DNA of 64,000 bases from positions 124,001 to 188,000 of the forward strand of contig NZ_JAAIIF010000009.1 of the NCBI RefSeq assembly GCF_012932675.1. Reading direction: 5' to 3'. Shown here one piece after another: positions 2,607 to 34,659 of this stretch. This DNA is from Bifidobacterium erythrocebi (GTDB lineage: Bacteria; Actinomycetota; Actinomycetes; Actinomycetales; Bifidobacteriaceae). Under the pieces are notes generated by a model. The model was not told where the DNA came from and searched no databases. It worked only from the letters and a program-made list of their open reading frames with translations. The position numbers were made by a program, and so were the translations under genes. How positions within the stretch are numbered: position 1 is the stretch's first letter; each line of letters starts with the position of its first letter.

Positions 2607-4229
2607 TCACTGGTCTCGGCCACGTCGCGACGCGGCGGCATGGCGACGCACGCGGATGCGCATGGCCATGGCAAGGCAGCTCCAGCCGATCAGGCAGATC
2701 AGAATCATCGTGGCGAAGATCCACGCACCGCCCACCGCCGTGGCATGGGCGAACGAAGCGGTCCCCTCGGCACCGGCACCAGCCTGCGCCACCGACAGGA
2801 TCGTGGCGAACAGCGCGGTTCCGGCCGCGCCGCCGAACTGCAGGCAGGTGTTGAAGATGGCATTGCCGTCCGGCTTGAACGCGCCGGGCACTTCGGACAG
2901 CGCGCTGGTCATCACGTTCGCGTTGCCGATGGCGTAGAAGAATCCGAAGATGAAGTAGAAGCCGGCCAGCATGGTCGCCGTCAGACGCATGGAGAACACC
3001 AGCATCAGCGTCGGGCCGAGAATGGCGATGCCCATGGGGATGAGGATCGGCTTGACCGCGCCGAAACGGTCGTAGAACCAGCCGCCGAGCGGAGCGCATA
3101 CCGCGCCGACCAGAGCGCCGGGCAGCACCAGCGCACCGGCCACGAACGTGGACGTGCCGAGCGAAAGCTGCGCAACATTGGTGATCACATAGCCGTAGCC
3201 GATGGCGACAAGCGGCATCAGCGTATACGCCACGGCGTGCAGCAGCACCACCGGGTCGCGCAGGATGCCCAGGCGCAGCAGCGGCGAGAACGCCCTGCTG
3301 GACATGTACGCGAACAGCACCAGCGATCCCAGGCCGACCACCAGGCACACCACGGTCACGACGATCGGGAACGTGGCGTCCCCTCCGGACACCAGCTTGC
3401 CCACGGCCACGCCGTCCTGGTTCAGCGCGAGCACCAGGCCGACCAGCGCGAACACGATGGCGGTCAGCTGCAGCGGATCCAGGTAGGCGTCCTCGTTCGG
3501 CACCTTCTGCTCGATGCAACGGCAGCCGATCACCGCGGCCAGCAGAATGATCGGAATCGCGATGACGAAGATCGCACGCCACGGCAGCACACTGGTCACC
3601 GCGCCGCCGACGGTCGGGCCGATCGCGGGGGCCACGGTGATCACCAGCGAGCCGACACCCATCAGACGACCAATCTTGGAACGCGGCGACTGCTCAAGGA
3701 TGATGTTCATCATCAACGGCGTGGCGATGCCCGAGCCGATGCCCTGGATGACACGGGCCAGCAGCAGCAGCGGGAAGGCGTGCGCGACGATCATGATCAG
3801 CGAGCCGATGATGGCGAGCGCCACCGCGGCGAGGAACAGGGCCTTGATCTTGAAGCGTCGCTTCAGGAAGGAGCTGACCGGCATGGTGGCCGCGACGGAC
3901 AGCAGGTAGATGGTGGTGATCCATTGGACCGTGGAGGTGGAGACGCTGAATTCTCGCATGAGCGAGGGGAACAGCACCGTCATCACGGTTTCCGTGAGAA
4001 TGCCGATGAAGGCGAGCGATCCGACCGCGATGATGGACCCGATGAGCTTGCCGCTGATCTTCTCGTCGTCGCTCTGCTGTGCCTGCGGCTGCTGCGGCGG
4101 CTGTGGTGATTGTACCGACTGCTGTGATTGCACTGCGCTTGCCGCCTGTGCCGTATTTATGGTGTTGTCTGCGTTCGTTGTTTCCGTCGGTGCGCCCATT
4201 CGCACGTTCCGACCAGTGTTGCGTTCCAT
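2607..4229 (-). CDS. MFS drug/proton antiporter, DHA2 (14-TMS) type
   Basis: Integral membrane exporter of the major facilitator superfamily, probably a multidrug efflux pump. About 14 hydrophobic segments are visible. Motifs include the DHA2-type N-terminal TVMTVLFPSLMREF helix, the QWITTIYLL segment, the RVIQGIGSGIATPL motif C-like stretch and PAIGPTVGG. A Gln/Pro/Ser-rich, about 60-residue hydrophilic tail precedes the first helix. The start chosen is the ATG at 4229 (MERNTGRN); a second ATG at 4199 (MGAPTETT) is possible, and the open frame up to 4403 has no membrane signal. It converges on yhbY. The substrate cannot be read from sequence. Confidence 0.87.
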   Translation of the reverse strand: MERNTGRNVRMGAPTETTNADNTINTAQAASAVQSQQSVQSPQPPQQPQAQQSDDEKISGKLIGSIIAVGSLAFIGILTETVMTVLFPSLMREFSVSTSTVQWITTIYLLSVAATMPVSSFLKRRFKIKALFLAAVALAIIGSLIMIVAHAFPLLLLARVIQGIGSGIATPLMMNIILEQSPRSKIGRLMGVGSLVITVAPAIGPTVGGAVTSVLPWRAIFVIAIPIILLAAVIGCRCIEQKVPNEDAYLDPLQLTAIVFALVGLVLALNQDGVAVGKLVSGGDATFPIVVTVVCLVVGLGSLVLFAYMSSRAFSPLLRLGILRDPVVLLHAVAYTLMPLVAIGYGYVITNVAQLSLGTSTFVAGALVLPGALVGAVCAPLGGWFYDRFGAVKPILIPMGIAILGPTLMLVFSMRLTATMLAGFYFIFGFFYAIGNANVMTSALSEVPGAFKPDGNAIFNTCLQFGGAAGTALFATILSVAQAGAGAEGTASFAHATAVGGAWIFATMILICLIGWSCLAMAMRIRVRRHAAASRRGRDQ

Positions 4230-7281: not shown

Positions 7282-9858
7282 CTACCGCAGGTCGGTGCCT
7301 ACCGCGTAGTCGAGGAACACGACCTCGCCGCCGTTCTGCGTGGCGTCGAGATCGACCACGCCGGTGATGGCCCAGTCGTGATCGCCGTCGGAATCGTCGA
7401 TGATCTGGCGCACCTTCCACGTGTGCTCGTCGTGCTCATGGGCATCGTCCAGCATGAAGAGCTTGGGGGAACGGGCTTCGGCGTCGACGTTCACGTATTC
7501 GTGCTCGTCATAGTAATCGTCGAGCGTGTCCTCCCACTCGTGCACGCCATAGCCCCAGTCCTTGTCAAGAGTGCCGAGCTCTTCGGGCCTGTCGAGATCC
7601 ATGAGCTGCACACGGCGGAACATGGCGTTGCGCACCAATACGGTGAGCCCGCGCCGATCCTCGACCACCTCGTTGCCGGAGCCGGGGGCGGCGAGGGATG
7701 CCGCGGCCTGCGACGCCTCATCCGAGGTGCCGGCGTTCTCCCATTCGTCCACCAGGCTGGAGTCGATGGAGCGTACGAGCACGCGCAGCCAGGCGATGAT
7801 GTCCTTCAGCCGTTCGTCGCGCTTTTCGACCGGTACGGTGCGTGCCAGCGACCGGTAGGCGTCGGACAGGTAGCGCAGCAGCGTGCCTTCGGAGCGCGCG
7901 ATGTTGTATCGGGCGATGTAACCGGTGAAATCCGACGCCGTCTCGACCATGTCGCGCACCACGGATTTGGGGCTCAGCCAGTAGTCGTTCGCCCATGGCA
8001 CATCGTGGCGGTACTTGGTGAAGGCCGCGTCCAGCAGATCCTCCAACGGCTTCGGGTAGGTGATCTCGGCAAGCCTGTCCATACGTTCGTCGTAGTCCAG
8101 ACCGTCAGCCTTCATGTCGGCCATGGCCTTGTCTTTCGCCGCGCGTTCCTGAGCACGCAGCACCTGACGCGGATCCTCAAGCGTGGCCTCGACCATGGAG
8201 ATCACATCGAGCGCGTAGGTCTCCGATTCGGGGTCGAGCAGTTCGAGCGCAGCCAGTAGGAACGGGGACAACGGCTGGTCAAGCGCGAAATCATCCGGCA
8301 TATCGAGCGTCATCAGGTAGTCCAGGCTGCCGTCGGGGCGACGCTCGGTCTCGATGACCTGCGTGTCGAAAAGCGTCTGGAAGATCTCGTCGGCACGCTG
8401 GTGCAGCCGTTCCTTCTGGTCGGGGGTCTGCGCCGAATCGTCGATGAGCTGGTCGATGCGCGCCCGGGCGTCGCCGCCCTGCTCCACTTCGTTCAGCACC
8501 ATGGAATGCGTGATCTTCAGATGCGGCACCAGTGTTTCCGGCTCGGCGTCGATGAGCTTGTCGAAAGTGCTCTGGTTCCAGTTCACGAAGCCTTCGGGGG
8601 CCTTCTTGCGCTTGATCTTCTTCAGCTTCTTCGGATCGCCGCCGGCCTTGGCTATGGCCTTCTGGTTCTCGATCTCGAATTCCGGGGCCTCCGCGATCAC
8701 CAGCCCTTCGGTGTCGAAACCCATACGCCCCGCACGCCCGGCGATCTGGTGGAATTCGCGGGCCTTGAGCCTGCGCATCTTGTTGCCGTCGTATTTGGTC
8801 AGGGCGGTGAGCACCACGGAATGGATGGGCACGTTGATGCCGACGCCCAGCGTATCGGTGCCGCAGATCACGGACAGCAGGCCCTGTTGGGCCAGCTGTT
8901 CGACCAGCCTGCGGTAGCGGGGCAGCATGCCGGCATGGTGGACGCCGATGCCGGTGCGTAGCAGGCGCTGCAGGATCTTGCCGAATGCCGTGGTGAACTT
9001 CACACCTTTGATGGCTTCGGCGATGGCGTTGCGCTGCTCCTTGCTGGACACGCCGGCGGATGCCAGCGCCTGAGCGGTCTCAAGCGCCGCGTCCTGGGAG
9101 AAATGCACGACGTAGATCGGCGTGGAGCCGTCCTTGTATGCCAGTTCGACGGTACGCTCAAGCGGATCGAGCGTGTATTCGTAGCTCAGCGGGACCGGAC
9201 GCGGCGCATTCGCGATGACATCCACGTCGGGGGTGTCGTTCAGATCGGCAAGCTTATCCGCGATGGCGTCCACGTTGCCCAGCGTGGCACTCATCAGCAG
9301 GAACTGCGTCTGCGGCAAGGTAAGCAGTGGCACCTGCCACGCCCAGCCGCGTTCCGAATCGCCGAAATAATGGAACTCGTCCATGGCGACCAGACCGATG
9401 TCGGCATGGACGCCTTCGCGCAGCGCCTGATTGGCCAGGATCTCGGCCGTGCAGCAGATGATCGGCGCATCGGCGTTGATATGGCTGTCGCCCGTGATCA
9501 TGCCGACGTTCTCGCGGCCGAACACCTCAATCAGGTCGAAGAACTTCTCGCTGACCAGCGCCTTGATCGGCGCGGTGTAGTAGGAGCGGCGGCCGGTGCA
9601 CAGGGCCGCGAAATGCATGCCCAGCGCCACCAGCGACTTGCCCGATCCCGTAGGGGTGTTCAGAATGACGTGGTCGCCGGCGAGAATGTCCATGATGGCC
9701 TCCTCCTGATGCGGCCATGGCTCGATGCCCTTCACATCGATGGCCCAATCGAAGAACCGTTCATAGATATCGTCCGCCGTCAGATTGCGGACGCCTTCGC
9801 CGCCGTCCCAGTCCGGGGCGAGACGCCCCAGGGATCCATACATCGTCTCATCGCTCAT
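7282..9858 (-). CDS. DEAD/DEAH-box RNA helicase, DUF3516 (Ski2-like) family
   Basis: 858-residue superfamily 2 helicase of the actinobacterial DUF3516 type, related to Ski2/Mtr4-like RNA helicases; probably involved in RNA turnover. Motifs in order: Q-like WPHQEEAI (48-55), Walker A TPTGSGKS (68-75), motif II DEFH (160-163, a Phe variant of DEVH/DEAH), SAT (190-192), motif IV-VI region with GVGINVPI and QIAGRAGRMGFDTEG. The C-terminal half is the DUF3516 region. A basic KKLKKIKRKK patch lies about mid-protein. It is followed upstream (in genome order) by nrdR on the same strand, 92 bases apart. Substrate unknown. Confidence 0.9.
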   Translation of the reverse strand: MSDETMYGSLGRLAPDWDGGEGVRNLTADDIYERFFDWAIDVKGIEPWPHQEEAIMDILAGDHVILNTPTGSGKSLVALGMHFAALCTGRRSYYTAPIKALVSEKFFDLIEVFGRENVGMITGDSHINADAPIICCTAEILANQALREGVHADIGLVAMDEFHYFGDSERGWAWQVPLLTLPQTQFLLMSATLGNVDAIADKLADLNDTPDVDVIANAPRPVPLSYEYTLDPLERTVELAYKDGSTPIYVVHFSQDAALETAQALASAGVSSKEQRNAIAEAIKGVKFTTAFGKILQRLLRTGIGVHHAGMLPRYRRLVEQLAQQGLLSVICGTDTLGVGINVPIHSVVLTALTKYDGNKMRRLKAREFHQIAGRAGRMGFDTEGLVIAEAPEFEIENQKAIAKAGGDPKKLKKIKRKKAPEGFVNWNQSTFDKLIDAEPETLVPHLKITHSMVLNEVEQGGDARARIDQLIDDSAQTPDQKERLHQRADEIFQTLFDTQVIETERRPDGSLDYLMTLDMPDDFALDQPLSPFLLAALELLDPESETYALDVISMVEATLEDPRQVLRAQERAAKDKAMADMKADGLDYDERMDRLAEITYPKPLEDLLDAAFTKYRHDVPWANDYWLSPKSVVRDMVETASDFTGYIARYNIARSEGTLLRYLSDAYRSLARTVPVEKRDERLKDIIAWLRVLVRSIDSSLVDEWENAGTSDEASQAAASLAAPGSGNEVVEDRRGLTVLVRNAMFRRVQLMDLDRPEELGTLDKDWGYGVHEWEDTLDDYYDEHEYVNVDAEARSPKLFMLDDAHEHDEHTWKVRQIIDDSDGDHDWAITGVVDLDATQNGGEVVFLDYAVGTDLR

Positions 9859-27073: not shown

Positions 27074-27078
27074 TGTTC

Positions 27079-27125
27079 AATCCGTTTGAATCATGTGGGA
27101 ACGACCCAGATGATTCAAACGGATT
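27079..27125 (+). terminator. First of two tandem hairpins after purL
   Basis: 16-bp perfect stem (27079-27094 / 27110-27125) with a 15-nt loop, starting 5 bases after the purL stop. It lacks a T-run and probably acts with the second hairpin. Confidence 0.6.
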
Positions 27126-27127
27126 CC

Positions 27128-27194
27128 AAACAAAAACCGAGGGGGATGCGTTTTCAGGATAGGTCCTTGAACGCATCCTCCTCGGTTTTTGTTT
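27128..27194. terminator. Bidirectional terminator between purL and the sensor kinase gene
   Basis: About 25-bp stem with one G-T wobble, A-rich 5' flank (AAACAAAAACC) and T-rich 3' flank (GGTTTTTGTTT), so it is an intrinsic terminator on both strands. It separates the convergent purL and histidine kinase genes. Confidence 0.85.
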
Positions 27195-27212
27195 GCCCTG
27201 TCATCTCCGGTT

Positions 27213-28466
27213 TTACCGCGATATTGGAATATTCACGGAAACAAGCAATCCTCCTCCACCCCTGGCCTGGAGCCGTATCGAGCCACCATGCAATGCGACG
27301 ATCTCTTTGGCGATGGATAAGCCCAGACCATGATTCGCCACCGACTGAGACGAACCGTCATGTTCCATGATTCTGCTGTTTTGTCCTTTGTTGAACGGGG
27401 TGAACAGGTCGTCAAGATCCATCTCGCGTAAATCCGTTCCTGTATTTTCGATATTCAGCGATGCCGTCTTTGACCCGTCCTCATCGGAACTCTCCTCTAG
27501 GGACACCCATATCTGCCCATCCGCTCTATTGTGTTGTACCGCATTGAGCGTCAGATTCCTCACAAGCTGTGTGAGCAGAAGCCCATCTCCCATTACGGAT
27601 ACGTTCTTCTCTATCCGTTTATGCAGCGTCAATCCTTCAAAGGCGGCATCATCGGAGAAAGACGTGAGTACGTCATCGACAACGGCTCCCATATCCACCG
27701 ATGTCAGTTGGGCATGTTCAAGCTGCTGGACATGAGCAAGATCCAGCAGATGCCGGGTCAGCGCAATGCATGACGCATTGGATGCCCTGGCCTTTTCGAT
27801 GAATGGAAGCGCCCTCCCATCAATCAAACCGTTATGCATCGATATTTCCAAAGCGGTAGCCGTGGCCGCAAGCGGATTCTTGAGCTCATGGGACGCGTCG
27901 GCGATAAACCGTTTCTCCCGCACAATGGAGGCGGCAACATCACCAATCGCATCGTTATAGGCATCGGCTATTACCGTTGCCGCATCGTTCTCCCGAGGAA
28001 TATGAATGACTTGTTTCGTTAGTTCCCCGTTTGAAGCCCGTATCTGTCTCGCTACCTCATCTATCCTGTGTTGAGAACGCGTGCATATACTCCAAGTTGC
28101 AATGGCCGAAAGCGCTCCGAATATCAGAATCGGCGCCACACTGGTAAGGAGCAACAAATTGCGCGCCTTCTCGTTACCGCGGGAAGCGGTAACAGCAAAC
28201 CCGTCCGGAGATGCGTTCTTCCCCACCGCGATATATGAATCGTCCTGTGATGGTTCAGCGGATTCCTGTTGTGCATATTGTGCATCCGAAGACCGCCCCG
28301 TCGTAAAACGGCCAATGGATACCGTATCGATTTGCTGATCGACGATGATGAAAGTCGCCATGGAAATAATCGCCGTCAAAGAGATAAATACGGCCAGAAT
28401 GACTGCGATAAGCCGCTTTCTTGTCGACCATAGAATACATGGGGCCGTTGGTTCTCTACTCTTCAT
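27213..28466 (-). CDS. Two-component sensor histidine kinase
   Basis: 417-residue membrane sensor: TM1 about 17-42, a short extracytoplasmic loop of about 60 residues, TM2 about 103-126, a HAMP-like linker, DHp helix with phospho-acceptor His193 (FIADASHELKNPLAAT), then a HATPase domain with an N-box (LTLNAVQHN) and G-boxes (GLGLSIAKEIVALHGGSI). Its ATG overlaps the stop of the upstream response-regulator gene (ATGA), so the two are translationally coupled. The pair is divergent from a lipoprotein/adaptor/ABC exporter operon, which it probably controls; this suggests sensing of an antimicrobial or envelope stress (inference). Confidence 0.92.
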   Translation of the reverse strand: MKSREPTAPCILWSTRKRLIAVILAVFISLTAIISMATFIIVDQQIDTVSIGRFTTGRSSDAQYAQQESAEPSQDDSYIAVGKNASPDGFAVTASRGNEKARNLLLLTSVAPILIFGALSAIATWSICTRSQHRIDEVARQIRASNGELTKQVIHIPRENDAATVIADAYNDAIGDVAASIVREKRFIADASHELKNPLAATATALEISMHNGLIDGRALPFIEKARASNASCIALTRHLLDLAHVQQLEHAQLTSVDMGAVVDDVLTSFSDDAAFEGLTLHKRIEKNVSVMGDGLLLTQLVRNLTLNAVQHNRADGQIWVSLEESSDEDGSKTASLNIENTGTDLREMDLDDLFTPFNKGQNSRIMEHDGSSQSVANHGLGLSIAKEIVALHGGSIRLQARGGGGLLVSVNIPISR

Positions 28467-29128
28467 GGGATCCGATACCCCTGCCCTGGAATCGTCTCGA
28501 TGAAGTCGGGGATGCCGATTTTCGTTCTCAACGCATATATGGTGGTCTTGACGATGCCACGTGTATGTGCGTGGTCATCATGCCATATCCTTTGATACAG
28601 CTCCTCCGTGCTCACCACGCCGCCATTCGCCTCGATCAACGTCTGTAACACGGCAAGTTCTCTGGCGCCGAATCTCAAACGACGTCCTGAGACAGTGACA
28701 ATGCCAGTATGGAAATCCGCTTCAAAGTTTCCCCTATGGAATGTGCTGACGCGACTTCGCTCTTTTCTACGCCGAACCGCGTTGACCCGTGCCAGAAGAA
28801 CCGCATATTCGAACGGTTTGGTCAGATAATCGTCCGCGCCGAGATTCAATCCCTGAACGATATCCTCGGTCTGGGAAGCCGCAGTAAGCATGAGCACATA
28901 GGTGGAGGCATGCCGTTCACTGAGCATACGGGCTATATCGTCTCCATGCACCCCTGGAAGATCACGATCCAAAATGACCATGTCGTACTCGCCATTGTCC
29001 AATTCCTCGACGGCATCCCGGCCATCGTACACGGCTTTGGCCTGCATGCCTTCCATATTCAGTCCCATGCCAATCACATCGGCCAAATTCGTGTTGTCTT
29101 CCACAATCAGAACTTTCACCGCCACCAT
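28463..29128 (-). CDS. OmpR/PhoB-type response regulator
   Basis: About 221 residues: receiver domain with IVEDN, phospho-acceptor Asp54 (VILDRDLPG) and Lys in YLTKPFEYA, followed by a winged-helix DNA-binding domain (RRLRFGARELAVLQTLIEANGGVVSTEELYQRIW). Family members usually begin MKVLIVED; the ATG at 29128 gives MVAVKVLIVED, and a GTG three codons later (29119) with AAGG upstream is an alternative. It is transcribed before the partner kinase with a 4-base overlap, and is divergent from the exporter operon at 29293. Confidence 0.92.
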   Translation of the reverse strand: MVAVKVLIVEDNTNLADVIGMGLNMEGMQAKAVYDGRDAVEELDNGEYDMVILDRDLPGVHGDDIARMLSERHASTYVLMLTAASQTEDIVQGLNLGADDYLTKPFEYAVLLARVNAVRRRKERSRVSTFHRGNFEADFHTGIVTVSGRRLRFGARELAVLQTLIEANGGVVSTEELYQRIWHDDHAHTRGIVKTTIYALRTKIGIPDFIETIPGQGYRIP

Positions 29129-29292
29129 CCTTGTCCGTTCCGTCTCACACCTTAGCAGTCATAATCACGAAGGTCAGGAACAGGTCAAGTCAGGTCAGTT
29201 CCCAGGCAAAAAGCATTCCAACAGACCATGGATTCTTACGCTTGCAACCGATATCGCACCATCGGAAACAAATAATGAAGGAAGAAAATCTG

Positions 29293-29928
29293 ATGTCCAA
29301 ATCATTTCGAATGTTGCTGGCCACTGGTCTTGCGGTTTCATTACTGACGCTGAATGCCTGCTCACCAAACCTGAACAGCAGCCATTCAAAAGCGCAATCC
29401 TCGTCAGGTACCGACACCTCCCAATCAACCGCATCCTATGAGACGCAATTGCGTCAGGCACTGCAATCCGCCACCAGCGATTTCGAAAAGCAGGTGCTCA
29501 CCAAAGCAATCAAAGCCGGGAAAATCAGCGAATCCGATTACCGTGAGGCCAACGAAAAATACCAACAGTGCATGATTTCCAAAGGAGATCAGATAACGTT
29601 CAGCACGGATCAATCCACAGGCCTGATGCAGGAAAGCATGGATGTTGACGGTCAGGATTACGACTCCGATAAGGTGAATTCCGACAGCATCGCATGCGCG
29701 AAGGGAACGAATCTGCTTATTCGCGATCTATACGAACGCATGACCACCAATCCCTCGAATGCCGATGACATCGAACTGATTGTGAGCTGCCTGAAACGTA
29801 AAAAACTGGTTCCGAACTCGTTTACCAAGCAGGATTACCTGAACGAATCCTCCAAAACGGATGGCAGCTCGAAGCTGGACACCGATTCCGAACCATTTTC
29901 CCAATGTCTGGCAAATCCGAATAAGTGA
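29293..29928 (+). CDS. Secreted lipoprotein of the exporter operon
   Basis: About 211 residues. A signal peptide (MSKSFRMLLATGLAVSLLTL) ends in a lipobox LNAC, so the mature protein is probably lipid-anchored from that Cys. The mature part has a Ser/Thr-rich linker followed by a helical domain with two Cys residues (YQQCM, SIACAK) and two more near the C-terminus, which may form disulfides. No known domain is recognised. The ATG at 29293 is chosen for the AAGGAAG site 8-9 bases upstream. First gene of an operon with the adaptor, ATPase and permease; perhaps a ligand sensor or accessory for them (inference). Confidence 0.8.
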   Translation: MSKSFRMLLATGLAVSLLTLNACSPNLNSSHSKAQSSSGTDTSQSTASYETQLRQALQSATSDFEKQVLTKAIKAGKISESDYREANEKYQQCMISKGDQITFSTDQSTGLMQESMDVDGQDYDSDKVNSDSIACAKGTNLLIRDLYERMTTNPSNADDIELIVSCLKRKKLVPNSFTKQDYLNESSKTDGSSKLDTDSEPFSQCLANPNK

Positions 29929-29942
29929 GGACTGATATCACC

Positions 29943-31007
29943 ATGTTTTTGCCACCAGTATTTCACGGCAAAATCCATGGCGCCGGATTCATAGCTTTGT
30001 GTATGGTCGCTTGCCTGTGTTCCGGTGCCGGTCTTGCCATTGGCCTTACCCAATCCAAGACGCCATCATCGCTCAGACCGTCATCGGACAGTGGAAATCT
30101 GCCACTGCAAACCGAGCAATTCGATGACACCCGCACCATATCATTGAATGTCACGGCATCGCATGCGCAGAATATATCTTTCGGCAGAACAGGACAGGTC
30201 ACTTACGCTTCCTGCCCAGACAATGGCGTAATAGTCTCGGGGTCCCATGAATACGATATGGATGGCGCACCGCTGGTGACTCTATATGCTCAAACGCCGC
30301 TATATCGCGACCTTTCTTACGGAGATAAAGGAACCGATGTCAAGGCGCTGCAGGCCGAATTGACACGTTTGGGATATTCCTCATCGCAGTCAGGCACTTT
30401 TGATTGGAGTACGTGGAATGCTTGGAAACAGCTTTACGCGGCTTACGGCGGAACAGCCCAGAATGGGACATTCGATAAGGCACTGGTGATCTGGATTCCT
30501 ACCGAAAGCCTGATTACCACCGGTTGCGCCACCGAGTTGGGATCGTCCGTATCCGATGACGATTCCGCAGCCGCATTCACGACAGCTGAGGGAATACAGT
30601 CAATCAAGGCCACAAATCTGCCGACAGACAGGGTGGCCGGAGAACGCACCGTCGAAATCAACGGCCAGACATATTCCATTGGCGAGGACGGCACAGTGAA
30701 CGATCCACAGGCCCTCACCGCAATGTCCTCTTGGGAAGGATATACGGGGAACCGTAAGGACGGCGAGCAGACCACCGACGTTTCCGTAAGCTACCGTCTG
30801 AAACAACCGATTGACGTCTATTCGATTCCAGCGAAAGCACTTGTCAATCTCAATAAATCGGATGGCTGCATTGTCAGCGCCAGCGGGGCCGCTCTGAAAG
30901 CTCATATCGTCGGCAGTTCATTAGGGCGAACCCTTGTCACGCTGGAAGGCAAAGCACCCGGCAGCATTCAGACGAATCCCGGAAAGTCAACATGTAATGC
31001 GCATTGA
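29943..31007 (+). CDS. Membrane-anchored adaptor with peptidoglycan-binding domain (ABC export adaptor)
   Basis: About 354 residues: one N-terminal membrane helix (AGFIALCMVACLCSGAGLAIGL), then an extracytoplasmic region. It includes a PG_binding_1-like helical domain (YGDKGTDVKALQAELTRLGYS) inserted in a beta-rich membrane-fusion-like chain, and ends with a segment resembling HlyD/MacA-type barrels. Such adaptors pair with MacB-type ABC transporters in actinobacteria and Firmicutes. A GTG start at 29925 overlapping the lipoprotein stop is possible; the ATG at 29943 is used here. The next gene begins inside this one. Export of a peptide or antimicrobial is inferred, not shown. Confidence 0.8.
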   Translation: MFLPPVFHGKIHGAGFIALCMVACLCSGAGLAIGLTQSKTPSSLRPSSDSGNLPLQTEQFDDTRTISLNVTASHAQNISFGRTGQVTYASCPDNGVIVSGSHEYDMDGAPLVTLYAQTPLYRDLSYGDKGTDVKALQAELTRLGYSSSQSGTFDWSTWNAWKQLYAAYGGTAQNGTFDKALVIWIPTESLITTGCATELGSSVSDDDSAAAFTTAEGIQSIKATNLPTDRVAGERTVEINGQTYSIGEDGTVNDPQALTAMSSWEGYTGNRKDGEQTTDVSVSYRLKQPIDVYSIPAKALVNLNKSDGCIVSASGAALKAHIVGSSLGRTLVTLEGKAPGSIQTNPGKSTCNAH

Positions 31008-31599
31008 ACTGAACAACATAGGACATCGATATGTCGACGGCCCGCTACTGTTCCATGGCTTGAGCGTGACGCTTCTCCCCAACCATGTCTATGCGCTTAC
31101 CGGCCCAAGCGGATCCGGTAAATCCACGCTGCTCGGCATTATCGCCGGTTGGATACGGCCGTCAAATGGCGAAGTATCGAAGCAAAACGTGGATTCCATG
31201 CGTTGGGTGTTTCAGAATCCTCATGGCATCGCGCAAAGAACGGTACTCGATCATGTCTCCCTTCCTTTGCTCGCCAAAGGGTTGACACGGAAACAGGCAG
31301 AGTATGAGGCTGTTCCCGCTTTGAAGCGGTTCGGTTTGAATCATGTGGCCGATCACCGGTTCTCCGATCTTTCCGGAGGAGAGGCGCAACGGCTCATGCT
31401 CGCGCGCGCGTTCGTGGCACATCCCTCGCTCATGTTGGTCGACGAGCCCACCGCCCAGCTTGACATGCATACAGCGGCCACAATCAGTGATGCATTGACT
31501 CGAATCGCACAATCCGACACCATCGTCGTCGTTTCTACCCATGACCCCCGAACACGCGACGCATGCACCGATGTCATTGACCTGAAGGATTTCCAATGA
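30997..31599 (+). CDS. ABC transporter ATP-binding protein (MacB/LolD type)
   Basis: 200 residues, a compact single ATPase: Walker A GPSGSGKST (about 37-45), Q-loop FQNP, signature LSGGEAQR, Walker B LMLVDEPTAQLD, and H-loop VVVSTHD. The start ATG at 30997 overlaps the end of the adaptor gene by 11 bases, and the stop overlaps the permease start (ATGA). Tight overlaps show one translation unit. The sequence class fits the MacB/LolD/FtsE family that powers lipoprotein or peptide movement rather than bulk solute import. Confidence 0.92.
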   Translation: MRIELNNIGHRYVDGPLLFHGLSVTLLPNHVYALTGPSGSGKSTLLGIIAGWIRPSNGEVSKQNVDSMRWVFQNPHGIAQRTVLDHVSLPLLAKGLTRKQAEYEAVPALKRFGLNHVADHRFSDLSGGEAQRLMLARAFVAHPSLMLVDEPTAQLDMHTAATISDALTRIAQSDTIVVVSTHDPRTRDACTDVIDLKDFQ

Positions 31600-32678
31600 G
31601 ACTATTCTCCATCTGCTCCGAAGCCTGGCGCAGTATATCCAGCGGGTCATCCCGCTGTGTTCTCGCGATACTATCCATCACCATTCTCGTTACCGGATCT
31701 TCGCTCTTTGAAATATCGACATCCTCAAGCATTCTTCGACAAGCCCGACAATACCGTAACGCCGGCGGCAACATCATGGTGCTCAATGCCACTGGCGGAG
31801 TGGATGGGCAGGCTTGTGAACGGCTGTCCAAACTCAATGGCGTACAGGCCTCCGGAGCGATCAGGGAGAGCGATCAGTTGACGGCATCGGCGTTGCCCGA
31901 CACCAAAATCCCAAGCTATGCCGTCACACCAGGCTTTGCCCGCGTATTACACGCAACGCAGAACGACAAAGTCCAAGGCATATTCGTTTCCAAGGAACTG
32001 GCCAAGACCTTCGGACTGCATGAGGGAGACAATCTCGCATTACGCGATGGTAGCCAGACCCGCATCCGAGGAATCTACAGATACCCCGATGATGGAAGAA
32101 CCCCCGGATACTCGTATGCGGTTCTTTCCTCCACGCCTTCAGCCGGAACTTTTGACGCTTGCTGGGTCAGTATCTGGCCACAAACAAGCCAAACGGAAGA
32201 TATGATCTGGTCTGCACTCACCCCAGCGGCCAAATCAGACAAGGACAACTCAATCACTTTGGGACAGCTCAACTCATCACTAGGAAGCTCCTTCGACGGA
32301 CAGGCCATGTATCGGCATCGTTCCACGGCTTTCCTGCCCATTGCGGTTGCATGTGCGGGAGCGATCCTAGGATACGCATTAGTTCATGTCAGACGTTTGG
32401 AAATCGCATCCGCGTTGCACTGCGGAGTATCGAAACCGGCATTGATGCTGCAAATATGCATCGAGTCGCTGATCATCATCAGCGTTTCTTCAGCGATTTC
32501 CGTGCCCATATCCTATCTGATGGCCACGGAATACGTCGGCAAAACTGACAGACTGCAAGTATTATTCAACGCTTCACTCCCAATACTCACCGCATATTCA
32601 GCATATGTGTTAGGCACCCTAGGATGCGTTCTCGCAATAAAGGAAAAACACCTGTTCGCTTATTTCAAAGAACGCTAG
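31596..32678 (+). CDS. FtsX-like ABC transporter permease
   Basis: 360 residues. One membrane helix near the N-terminus (CVLAILSITILVTGSSLFEI), a large extracytoplasmic MacB-PCD-like domain of about 200 residues, and three C-terminal helices (FLPIAVACAGAILGYALV, LMLQICIESLIIISVSSAISVPIS, ILTAYSAYVLGTLGCVLAI). This is the FtsX/MacB layout. It overlaps the ATPase gene by 4 bases. With the divergent two-component system it forms a self-contained sensing/export module. It is last in the operon; no clear terminator follows. Confidence 0.88.
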   Translation: MRLFSICSEAWRSISSGSSRCVLAILSITILVTGSSLFEISTSSSILRQARQYRNAGGNIMVLNATGGVDGQACERLSKLNGVQASGAIRESDQLTASALPDTKIPSYAVTPGFARVLHATQNDKVQGIFVSKELAKTFGLHEGDNLALRDGSQTRIRGIYRYPDDGRTPGYSYAVLSSTPSAGTFDACWVSIWPQTSQTEDMIWSALTPAAKSDKDNSITLGQLNSSLGSSFDGQAMYRHRSTAFLPIAVACAGAILGYALVHVRRLEIASALHCGVSKPALMLQICIESLIIISVSSAISVPISYLMATEYVGKTDRLQVLFNASLPILTAYSAYVLGTLGCVLAIKEKHLFAYFKER

Positions 32679-32738
32679 CAATGTTCTAAGTGGCGTCTTT
32701 CTCTTGTGCCTCTGCTCTTTGGCAAAAATACAATTCCA

Positions 32739-32790
32739 TTTTATGCTTACGAGTATAATACTCATGAGTATTATACTCGTAAGCATAAAA
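32739..32790. repeat. Perfect 52-bp palindrome upstream of the ATPase-nuclease gene
   Basis: Uninterrupted palindrome, 26 bp per arm with no loop, centred between 32764 and 32765. Outer 12-bp arms TTTTATGCTTAC / GTAAGCATAAAA enclose two 13-bp near-palindromes, GAGTATAATACTC and GAGTATTATACTC, separated by AT. Thus four GAGTAT half-sites alternate in direction, and TATAAT-like hexamers occur on both strands. Just outside, TGCCTCTGCT (32708) and GCAGAGAGGCA (32793) extend the symmetry imperfectly. It ends 16 bases before the ATG of the next gene, so it is well placed as an operator/promoter or a structured 5' leader. Confidence 0.9.
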
Positions 32791-32806
32791 CAGCAGAGAG
32801 GCAGCC

Positions 32807-34228
32807 ATGTTCGTTGGAAGACTCAAGGAGCTCGAAGTACTCAACACCATGTGGGAACAGACCACGTTTCAGATGATGGTGCTACTCGGCCGCAGGCGTG
32901 TGGGCAAAACCGCCTTGTTGGACGAATTCTCAAAAGACAAGAACACGCTGTACTTCACCGCACGTCAGCAAACCACGCAGAACAATCTGCGCGATTTCTC
33001 ACGCGTCATCCAACGATTCTTCCATCTGCCAGAAGGTATGTTCACCTTCGGCACATGGCAGGACGCATTCGATTTCATCATCGAACAAGTCAAGAACCGG
33101 ACGGAACGTTTTCTCCTGGTATTTGATGAATTCCCCTACGCGGCCATGGCCGACCCCTCGTTGCCATCCGTGTTGCAAGTCGCCATAGACCATGGCTTCG
33201 CGGACACGAACACCATGATGGCGCTGTGCGGCAGCAACGAAGGATTCATGGAAAGCGAAGTACTGGGCTACAAAAGCCCCCTATACGGGCGCAGAACAGG
33301 ACAGCTGCGACTCAAGCCCTTCGACGTGTTCGACACCGCGAAAATGCTCGACTTCGCAGGGGTGGAGGATGTCATCAAGTATTACGCCACGTTCGGTGGC
33401 ACCCCATACTACCTGCAGCAGATACGGCCAGACCTGTCTTATGAGCAGAATGTAATCAATCTTCTGTTCTCTCCCAACGGTCTGCTCTATGAGGAGCCGC
33501 TTATGCTGCTGCGGCAGGAATTGCGCGATCCGACGGTTTACAACTCGGTGATGGACGCGATAGGCAGCGGCACGACAAGGCAGAATAAGATCGCCGACCA
33601 AGCCGGCATACAACCGGTCACGAACCTCAGCAAGTACCTTCGCGTGCTTGAGGACCTGGGATTGGCCGAACGCGAAGTCCCCTTCGGAGAGGACCCCTCC
33701 CGTTCAAGAAAAGGACTATGGAAACCCGCCGACCCATTCTTCGCGTTCTGGTACCGTTTCGTCAGCCCCAATATCGTGAACGTGGAAAACGGCCAAGGTG
33801 AGTTGACCGCCCAACATATGGTATTCGGCCCGGCGCTCGACACGTATGTCGGGCAGCAGTTCGAAAGCGTCTGCATGCAGTGGCTCTGGCACGTCAACGG
33901 CAGCGATCAGCTTCCATTTGTCGCCTTGCGATTCGGGAAATGGTGGGGCGGAAATCCCACAACCAAGCAGCAGACCGATATCGACGTAATCGCGGCGAAC
34001 GAAACCGAAAAACGCATCCTGCTTGGCGAATGCAAGTGGAAGAACGATCTGAACGTCGCGGACACCATCGCCACACTTCGTTCCCGCGCAGACCTCATAC
34101 CCGGATATTCCGAACGGCATTACGCATTGTTCGTCAAGACGGATGAGCTGGCATCAGCCGCACGCGAGCGCCATGAGCCCGATCTGACCGTCGTTTCCGC
34201 GAACAGCATGTTCGAGAATGCACGATGA
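32807..34228 (+). CDS. AAA ATPase fused to a PD-(D/E)XK-like DUF234 nuclease domain
   Basis: 473 residues. N-terminal P-loop ATPase of the archaeal ATPase/STAND-related type: [12 protein letters not shown] box, Walker A GRRRVGKT (28-35), Walker B LLVFDEFP (103-110). A winged-helix segment follows (about 255-290, [26 protein letters not shown]). The C-terminal DUF234-type domain shows a PD-(D/E)XK-like signature: Asp391/Asp393 (TDIDVI) and Glu408-x-Lys410 (GECKWK). Such proteins are widespread and uncharacterised; a DNA-related defence or maintenance role is a hypothesis. AGAGAGG precedes the ATG. It stands alone, flanked by a 52-bp palindrome and a 470-base repeat tract. Confidence 0.88.
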
Positions 34229-34275
34229 TCGGGCGTCTTCATCAGGATGCCTGCACAACCACCTCGACGTGAACC

Positions 34276-34294
34276 ATCTCGCTTACGTGTGGCA
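34276..34294 (-). repeat. 19-base repeat copy 1 (inverted)
   Basis: Reverse complement of TGCCACACGTAAGCGAGAT, exact; 48 bases after the ATPase-nuclease stop. Confidence 0.85.
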
Positions 34295-34364
34295 CCTCTC
34301 CCCTGATATTCCCAAACAGAACGTTGCAATTCCGCGGTTTGTTTCCGTCGTATCGCGCTTCGGG

Positions 34365-34383
34365 TGCCACACGTAAGCGAGAT
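34365..34383 (+). repeat. 19-base repeat copy 2
   Basis: Exact TGCCACACGTAAGCGAGAT. Copies 1 and 2 face each other across 70 bases. Confidence 0.85.
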
Positions 34384-34406
34384 AGCACGCCTGGAACGCG
34401 AAAATC

Positions 34407-34425
34407 TGCCACACGTAAGCGAGAT
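34407..34425 (+). repeat. 19-base repeat copy 3
   Basis: Exact TGCCACACGTAAGCGAGAT, also followed by AGC as in copy 2 (AG then C); 42 bases from copy 2 start to start. Confidence 0.85.
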
Positions 34426-34518
34426 AGCGCCCCGGATAGGACTTATTTGAGCTCACCAGCTAAGGAAAGCAAAAATGCCAATATGAAGCCAACAAACAGC
34501 GGTCAAAACTGCCAAGTG

Positions 34519-34659
34519 GCTTGTTTGTGGCATCCAAAACGCGTTAGCCCGAGTACGAGGCGCATAATTGCAACGCTCATACTCGGGCTAATGCGGAAAA
34601 GGTGCCATAAATAAGCAGACAAGCGAAACCGAACCGTTGAAATCCGCCACAAACAAGCG
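34519..34659. repeat. Degenerate repeat relatives
   Basis: TGCCACAAACAAGC on the minus strand (34519-34532), GTGCCATAAATAAGC (34602-34616) and GCCACAAACAAGCG (34646-34659) share the TGCCA-N5-AAGC core with the 19-base repeat. Confidence 0.55.
34546..34591. other. Hairpin inside the repeat tract
   Basis: 12-bp stem TTAGCCCGAGTA / TACTCGGGCTAA encloses 22 bases, with further partial pairing (CGAG..GCTC-like). There is no T-run on either strand, so it is not a typical terminator. Confidence 0.55.

Follow-up and report, generated by a model that had tools for sequence, protein, structure and literature searches.

What is the role of a perfect 52-bp palindrome that stands directly in front of a gene for an ATPase with a nuclease-like domain? 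The question was raised by a 64-kb stretch of a Bifidobacterium genome, hereafter called the window. The palindrome at 32739-32790 is exact, its arms of 26 nt are 100% complementary with a loop of 0 nt and no mismatch, and it reads TTTTATGCTTAC GAGTATAATACTC AT GAGTATTATACTC GTAAGCATAAAA. It is the sole long loop-free palindrome in the window, where a random sequence would be expected to hold about 1e-11 palindromes with 26-nt arms (4^-26 x 64000). The ATG at 32807 sits 16 nt past its end. Within it GAGTATNATACTC occurs twice and exactly, at 32751-32763 and 32766-32778, with starts 15 bp apart, and TATAAT is present at 32754-32759 on the plus strand with a symmetric copy on the opposite strand. 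An earlier sequence-only reading had described the loop-free palindrome 16 bases before the start, the two 13-bp units with GAGTAT half-sites and the TATAAT-like hexamers on both strands, and all of these were found as described; its assignment of the DNA to Bifidobacterium and of the gene to the DUF234 ATPases was likewise correct. As single-stranded DNA the palindrome folds with -23.2 kcal/mol (z=-11). The features of the locus are as follows.

32719-32747, plus strand: promoter-like TTGGCA-17-TATGCT, second hexamer inside the left arm (consensus match only)
32739-32790, no strand: perfect 52-bp palindrome, a symmetric array of 15-bp-spaced half-sites (from sequence and homologues)
32746-32753, no strand: first of three CTYRYRAG dyads, CTTACGAG, a dyad also present in homologues
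32751-32763, no strand: unit 1, GAGTATAATACTC, two GAGTAT half-sites
32761-32768: second CTYRYRAG dyad, CTCATGAG, at 15-bp spacing
32766-32778, no strand: unit 2, GAGTATTATACTC, starting 15 bp after unit 1
32776-32783: third CTYRYRAG dyad, CTCGTAAG, at 15-bp spacing
32796-32801, plus strand: GAGAGG, at 5 nt from the ATG and likely to be the ribosome-binding site (inferred from sequence)
32807-34228, plus strand: ATPase_2 and DUF234 protein of 473 aa, PADLOC PDC-S27 (Pfam and PADLOC profiles)
33530-33727, plus strand: predicted winged helix, residues 242-307 (AlphaFold2 model)
33632-33634, plus strand: codon of Lys276, the residue that tracks the array sequence across the family
33749-34045, plus strand: DUF234 domain with PD-(D/E)XK-like D393, E408 and K410

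The upstream gene is oriented toward the palindrome and so would not need the bidirectional promoter that the sequence-only reading had guessed. Promoter-like matches numbered 2 in 401 bases against 0.8 expected, which is not clearly above chance. In the 2.29-Mb genome no further copy was found of the 13-mer unit (at most 1 mismatch) or of the 28-bp core of the palindrome (at most 3 mismatches). The array is thus present in cis only, and the absence of its motif elsewhere in the genome fits a dedicated cis site.

The protein encoded at 32807-34228 matched both ATPase_2 (PF01637) and DUF234 (PF03008) above the curated Pfam cut-offs, and the PADLOC candidate defence family PDC-S27 with 2.5e-58. 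The anti-phage role of PDC-S27 is that of a candidate, since PDC status is assigned by association. Systems of this family have been counted at 3503 in Archaea and 4562 in Bacteria (PMC12988326). The AlphaFold2 model (mean pLDDT 86.9) combines an AAA+ core with a winged helix and has the DUF234 domain at its C-terminus; the winged helix comprises helices 242-253, 259-266 and 271-283, the last being the recognition helix, and wing strands 287-290 and 304-307. The nearest solved structures to the model were the archaeal ATPases 2qen and 2fna, followed by Orc1/Cdc6 and NLR/CED-4. Among 95 bifidobacterial homologues, the Walker A/B residues G28, G33, K34, T35, D107 and E108 were invariant, D393 and E408 were present in all 95, and K410 in 94, with one gap. 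Judged by these three residues and by prior knowledge, DUF234 is a putative PD-(D/E)XK-type nuclease.

Homologues of ATPase_2-DUF234 type were found in 60 of 112 genomes of the same genus, with 1 to 5 per genome. We compared 96 non-redundant upstream regions of the bifidobacterial homologues with block-shuffled sequence as null. Mean identity at lag 15 was 0.376 against 0.268 in shuffled sequence (z=26); lag 30 appeared as a harmonic (z=9.6), and every other lag gave z of at most 7. A clear 15-bp period, above the 99% level of the null, was recorded for 75% of the loci, and about one quarter had no clear array. Outside the genus the same period was seen again, with z=9.9 for the upstream regions of 36 homologues and z=5.6 for a mixed set of 27 regions from other phyla and viral contigs (Rhodothermus, rhizobial, haloarchaeal, fusobacterial and viral-contig sequences); start codons of the out-of-genus loci were set by profile-based calls. 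The array unit has the form X6-N-X6'-RY, where X6 is GAGTAT, GACTAT, GATTTG, GATTAT or others, the letters vary between paralogue groups, and arrays extend to five units at most (L108). A palindromicity score of at least 10 was reached by 69% of the upstream regions, whereas shuffles got there in 0.3% and window tiles in 1.6% of cases. The sequence-only reading had tied its case to the palindrome being kept in front of orthologues, and this half holds: the 15-bp array is kept, whereas perfect arms of at least 18 nt occurred at only 15 of the 96 loci. The conserved trait is therefore a 15-bp array of inverted half-sites and not perfect symmetry, and the palindrome of the window is a symmetric member of this array family.

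The letters of the array were found to vary together with one residue of the adjacent protein. In a register-free scan, array distance was compared with about 390 variable protein columns, with a correction for how far apart the proteins are overall. Residue 276 led with r=0.33 over all pairs and 0.41 within clades, against 0.23 and 0.27 for the runner-up in each case, and the AlphaFold2 model, consulted after the scan, located it midway along the predicted recognition helix of the ATPase's winged helix. The neighbouring Y277 is invariant, which makes the variation at 276 local. For Lys276 the third base of the half-site was G (GAGTAT) in 21 of 21 assigned loci and for Phe276 it was C (GACTAT) in 9 of 10, while T at this base, mostly as GATT, accompanied Val276 (7/7), Thr276 (8/9), Ala276 (9/10) and Ser276 (6/7). 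By mutual information residue 276 was top of 369 columns, accounting for 1.27 of the 1.44 bits in the base label; this test used a base classifier, RA(b)TW, written after inspection of the arrays, so that only the register-free scan was blind. Position 272 of the same helix was among the top four columns for half-site base 6. On a tree built without the winged-helix columns, independent switches amounted to 1 for the K-G pair, 3-4 for F-C and 4-5 for small residue-T pairs, nearly all concordant and too few for significance.

Outside the genus, the code at residue 276 was correct for 12 of 20 assignable loci against 6.7 expected (P=0.006), and 8 of 20 were missed. Among the successes were a Rhodothermus plasmid homologue of 41% identity with K276, which carries GAGTATAATACTC itself, a Veillonellaceae homologue with F276 and GACTAT, and three viral-contig homologues with V276 and AAATCACGATTT or similar. 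The failures included haloarchaeal K276 homologues with a different motif and two A276 proteins with AAGTAA arrays. Two traits of iteron-type sites were found across the family, i.e., repeats of constant 15-bp spacing beside the gene of the putative binder, and site letters that track a predicted DNA-contact residue of the adjacent protein, the latter in part also out of sample. The covariation suggests that each enzyme may read its own array. The idea that paralogues of one genome are kept orthogonal to each other found no support, as their arrays differed no more than expected (mean percentile 0.52).

We consider it probable that the protein encoded directly downstream binds the palindrome as a symmetric array of sites, which is most likely an autoregulatory operator. 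This is the best reading of a private array that lies next to the start codon, in cis only, and with letters matched to a recognition helix. Each 15-bp step would carry inverted GAGTAT half-sites, into which ATPase subunits would place the recognition helix (271-283) of their own winged helix, with Lys276 contacting the third half-site base, G, and multiple subunits could align along the array. That the winged helix of the ATPase is what binds we infer from the covariation. The array reaches into the beginning of the control region and ends 16 nt short of the start codon, so that occupancy would most likely repress the gene and let an ATPase-nuclease that could be harmful limit its own amount to a low level. 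Repression, with release upon infection or other stress, is the least certain part of this reading and has the standing of an ordinary guess. Among the four functions guessed by the sequence-only reading, the tandem operator is the best supported, by the conserved 15-bp array and the letters that follow residue 276; a cleavage target is conceivable.

The main rival, which is compatible with an operator and which we hold to be unlikely as the primary role, is that the enzyme works or assembles on the array. There the ATPase would form an Orc1/Cdc6- or STAND-like oligomer, DUF234 would nick the DNA or be restrained on it, and regulation would be secondary. Invariant catalytic residues, a combination of AAA+ core and winged helix that matches 2qen/2fna, Orc1/Cdc6 and NLR/CED-4, and arrays of up to five units would all suit such a role. 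However, a self-cutting chromosomal site beside the enzyme's own gene would be costly, and no signs of rearrangement were seen. Three array patterns were searched in viral contigs and gave no matches, so there is no evident phage-borne target of that kind.

It is improbable, in our judgement, that the palindrome itself was selected as a cruciform or hairpin, or kept perfect by template switching, with binding sites explaining the core only. Some loci do invite this explanation. The B. ruminantium orthologue, whose protein is 93% identical, has one 15-bp unit fewer and the same outer arms and is still perfect, and it differs from the window also by a paired C/G to T/A change. In this paired change (CTTAT/ATAAG in L032, about 2945-2990, versus CTTAC/GTAAG in the window) both arms have changed together. 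In L006 the outer arms are unrelated in sequence yet fully complementary, e.g., TTAGACCTCCGTGC; such unrelated but complementary arms belong to the 15 of 96 loci with perfect arms of at least 18 nt. Most homologues, however, lack a long perfect palindrome and have the 15-bp period, and the letters of the core track residue 276. Binding would not require outer arms of such perfection, which in some copies, that of the window among them, extends well past the binding units; it might stem from template switching between arms or from selection acting on a cruciform.

We regard it as very improbable that the site is read by another regulator or is a mere promoter element. The TATAAT within the unit and the TTGGCA-17-TATGCT match would fit a promoter, but promoter matches did not clearly exceed chance, TATAAT is not retained in the arrays of homologues (e.g., GTATGATAC, GATTTGACAAATC), and the array letters shift with the adjacent protein, across phyla too. 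It is highly improbable as well that the palindrome terminates a mobile element or is one of a set of dispersed, REP-like palindromic repeats. Gene and palindrome behave as a presence/absence cassette, absent in G059, and homology between the window and B. ruminantium starts inside the palindrome; the core is, however, single-copy in the genome, no matching second end was found downstream, and the neighbouring genes were scanned without finding a transposase or integrase. An end of a transposon or insertion sequence was disfavoured, as second terminal repeat, transposase and multiple copies were all not found. A leader RNA hairpin acting as RNase III site, attenuator or translation block, another guess of the sequence-only reading, is hardly credible, for the strong hairpin of the window (leader -44.8 kcal/mol) is not conserved in strength, many homologues having an array without it (weak in L039, L021 and L020), the 15-bp direct-repeat period is left unexplained, and an Rfam search gave no family at gathering score, with sub-threshold matches nearly all to eukaryotic miRNA, as is typical of any hairpin.

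Tandem autoregulatory operators and iterons are known from plasmid Rep iterons, archaeal Orc1/Cdc6 origin boxes and the C-protein boxes of restriction-modification systems. The array shares with them short repeats of fixed spacing beside the gene of the proposed binder, and its ATPase shares the AAA+ and winged-helix fold with Orc1/Cdc6. In contrast to these systems, no origin, Rep or methylase function is known for the array ATPase, each unit holds two dyads, the 15-bp step is family-wide with changing letters, and the proposed binder carries a nuclease-like domain. While the protein matches PDC-S27 (2.5e-58) and both Pfam domains, the array is not part of the PADLOC family description. Mycobacterial IniR is an SSO1545-like ATPase in transcriptional control (PMC5760070). 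The array ATPase, too, is SSO1545-like and is proposed to act as a regulator, but the C-terminal domains of IniR are MalT-like and SdiA-like, and what it regulates is iniBAC and not its own gene via an array. Autoregulatory repeat arrays are thus of a known kind, and in the literature searched, which covers few subscription journals, we found no DUF234-linked array or DNA target, nor any account of an array that is private to each gene of this family, changes in its letters and follows a code at the level of a residue; papers retrieved for DUF234 dealt mostly with type VI secretion. As DUF234 ATPases number thousands, a specificity code of one residue offers a concrete and cheap handle on their binding targets; predicted sites can be read from many genomes and checked by gel shift with residue swaps.

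Loci of DUF4143 ATPases were chosen as negative control for the 15-bp period, and this period was not found in their upstream regions. The DUF4143 (AAA_14) ATPase genes of Bifidobacterium were instead preceded by 3-5 direct repeats with a period of 23 bp (z=10), located 20-150 bp before the start in L127, L128, L131, L134, L135, L137, L148 and L154. These repeats differ in their letters from locus to locus and parallel the 15-bp arrays in another ATPase family, which is presumably also a defence candidate (PDC-S01). It would be a bold and rather unlikely generalisation that candidate immune ATPase-nucleases with DUF234, perhaps also those with DUF4143 and 23-bp repeats, each keep a private array beside their gene on which an Orc- or resistosome-like oligomer could assemble, the array being operator and holding or trigger platform together.

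The gene lies in a variable segment (window 27075-34527, between purL and a DUF4230 gene), which is missing entirely in G019 (L220 8342 to 8234) and partly present in G059. In G059, where gene and palindrome are absent, the permease gene upstream is followed by a repeat that the window has on the far side of the ATPase gene. Together with the B. ruminantium homology that starts within the palindrome, this fits a gene horizontally exchanged with its control site. The repeat, GGCTTGTTTGTGGCA...GAGTATGAGCCGCGGAATTGCAACGCTCATACTCG...GTGCCACAAACAAGC, is intergenic, measures about 110-150 bp and occurs in several genomes of Bifidobacterium (window 34505-34659; L032 4453-4607 and 5284-5406; L221 1884-1990; L220 about 8180-8234). 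In B. ruminantium two copies flank an apparent toxin-antitoxin pair of YefM/YoeB type, read by eye. Downstream of the ATPase gene, ATCTCGCTTACGTGTGGCA occurs three times in window 34276-34425, with one copy inverted relative to the other two. Right after purL there are two consecutive near-perfect hairpins, 27079-27125 and 27127-27195, with arms 95% and 96% complementary, which are likely terminators or repeat remnants.
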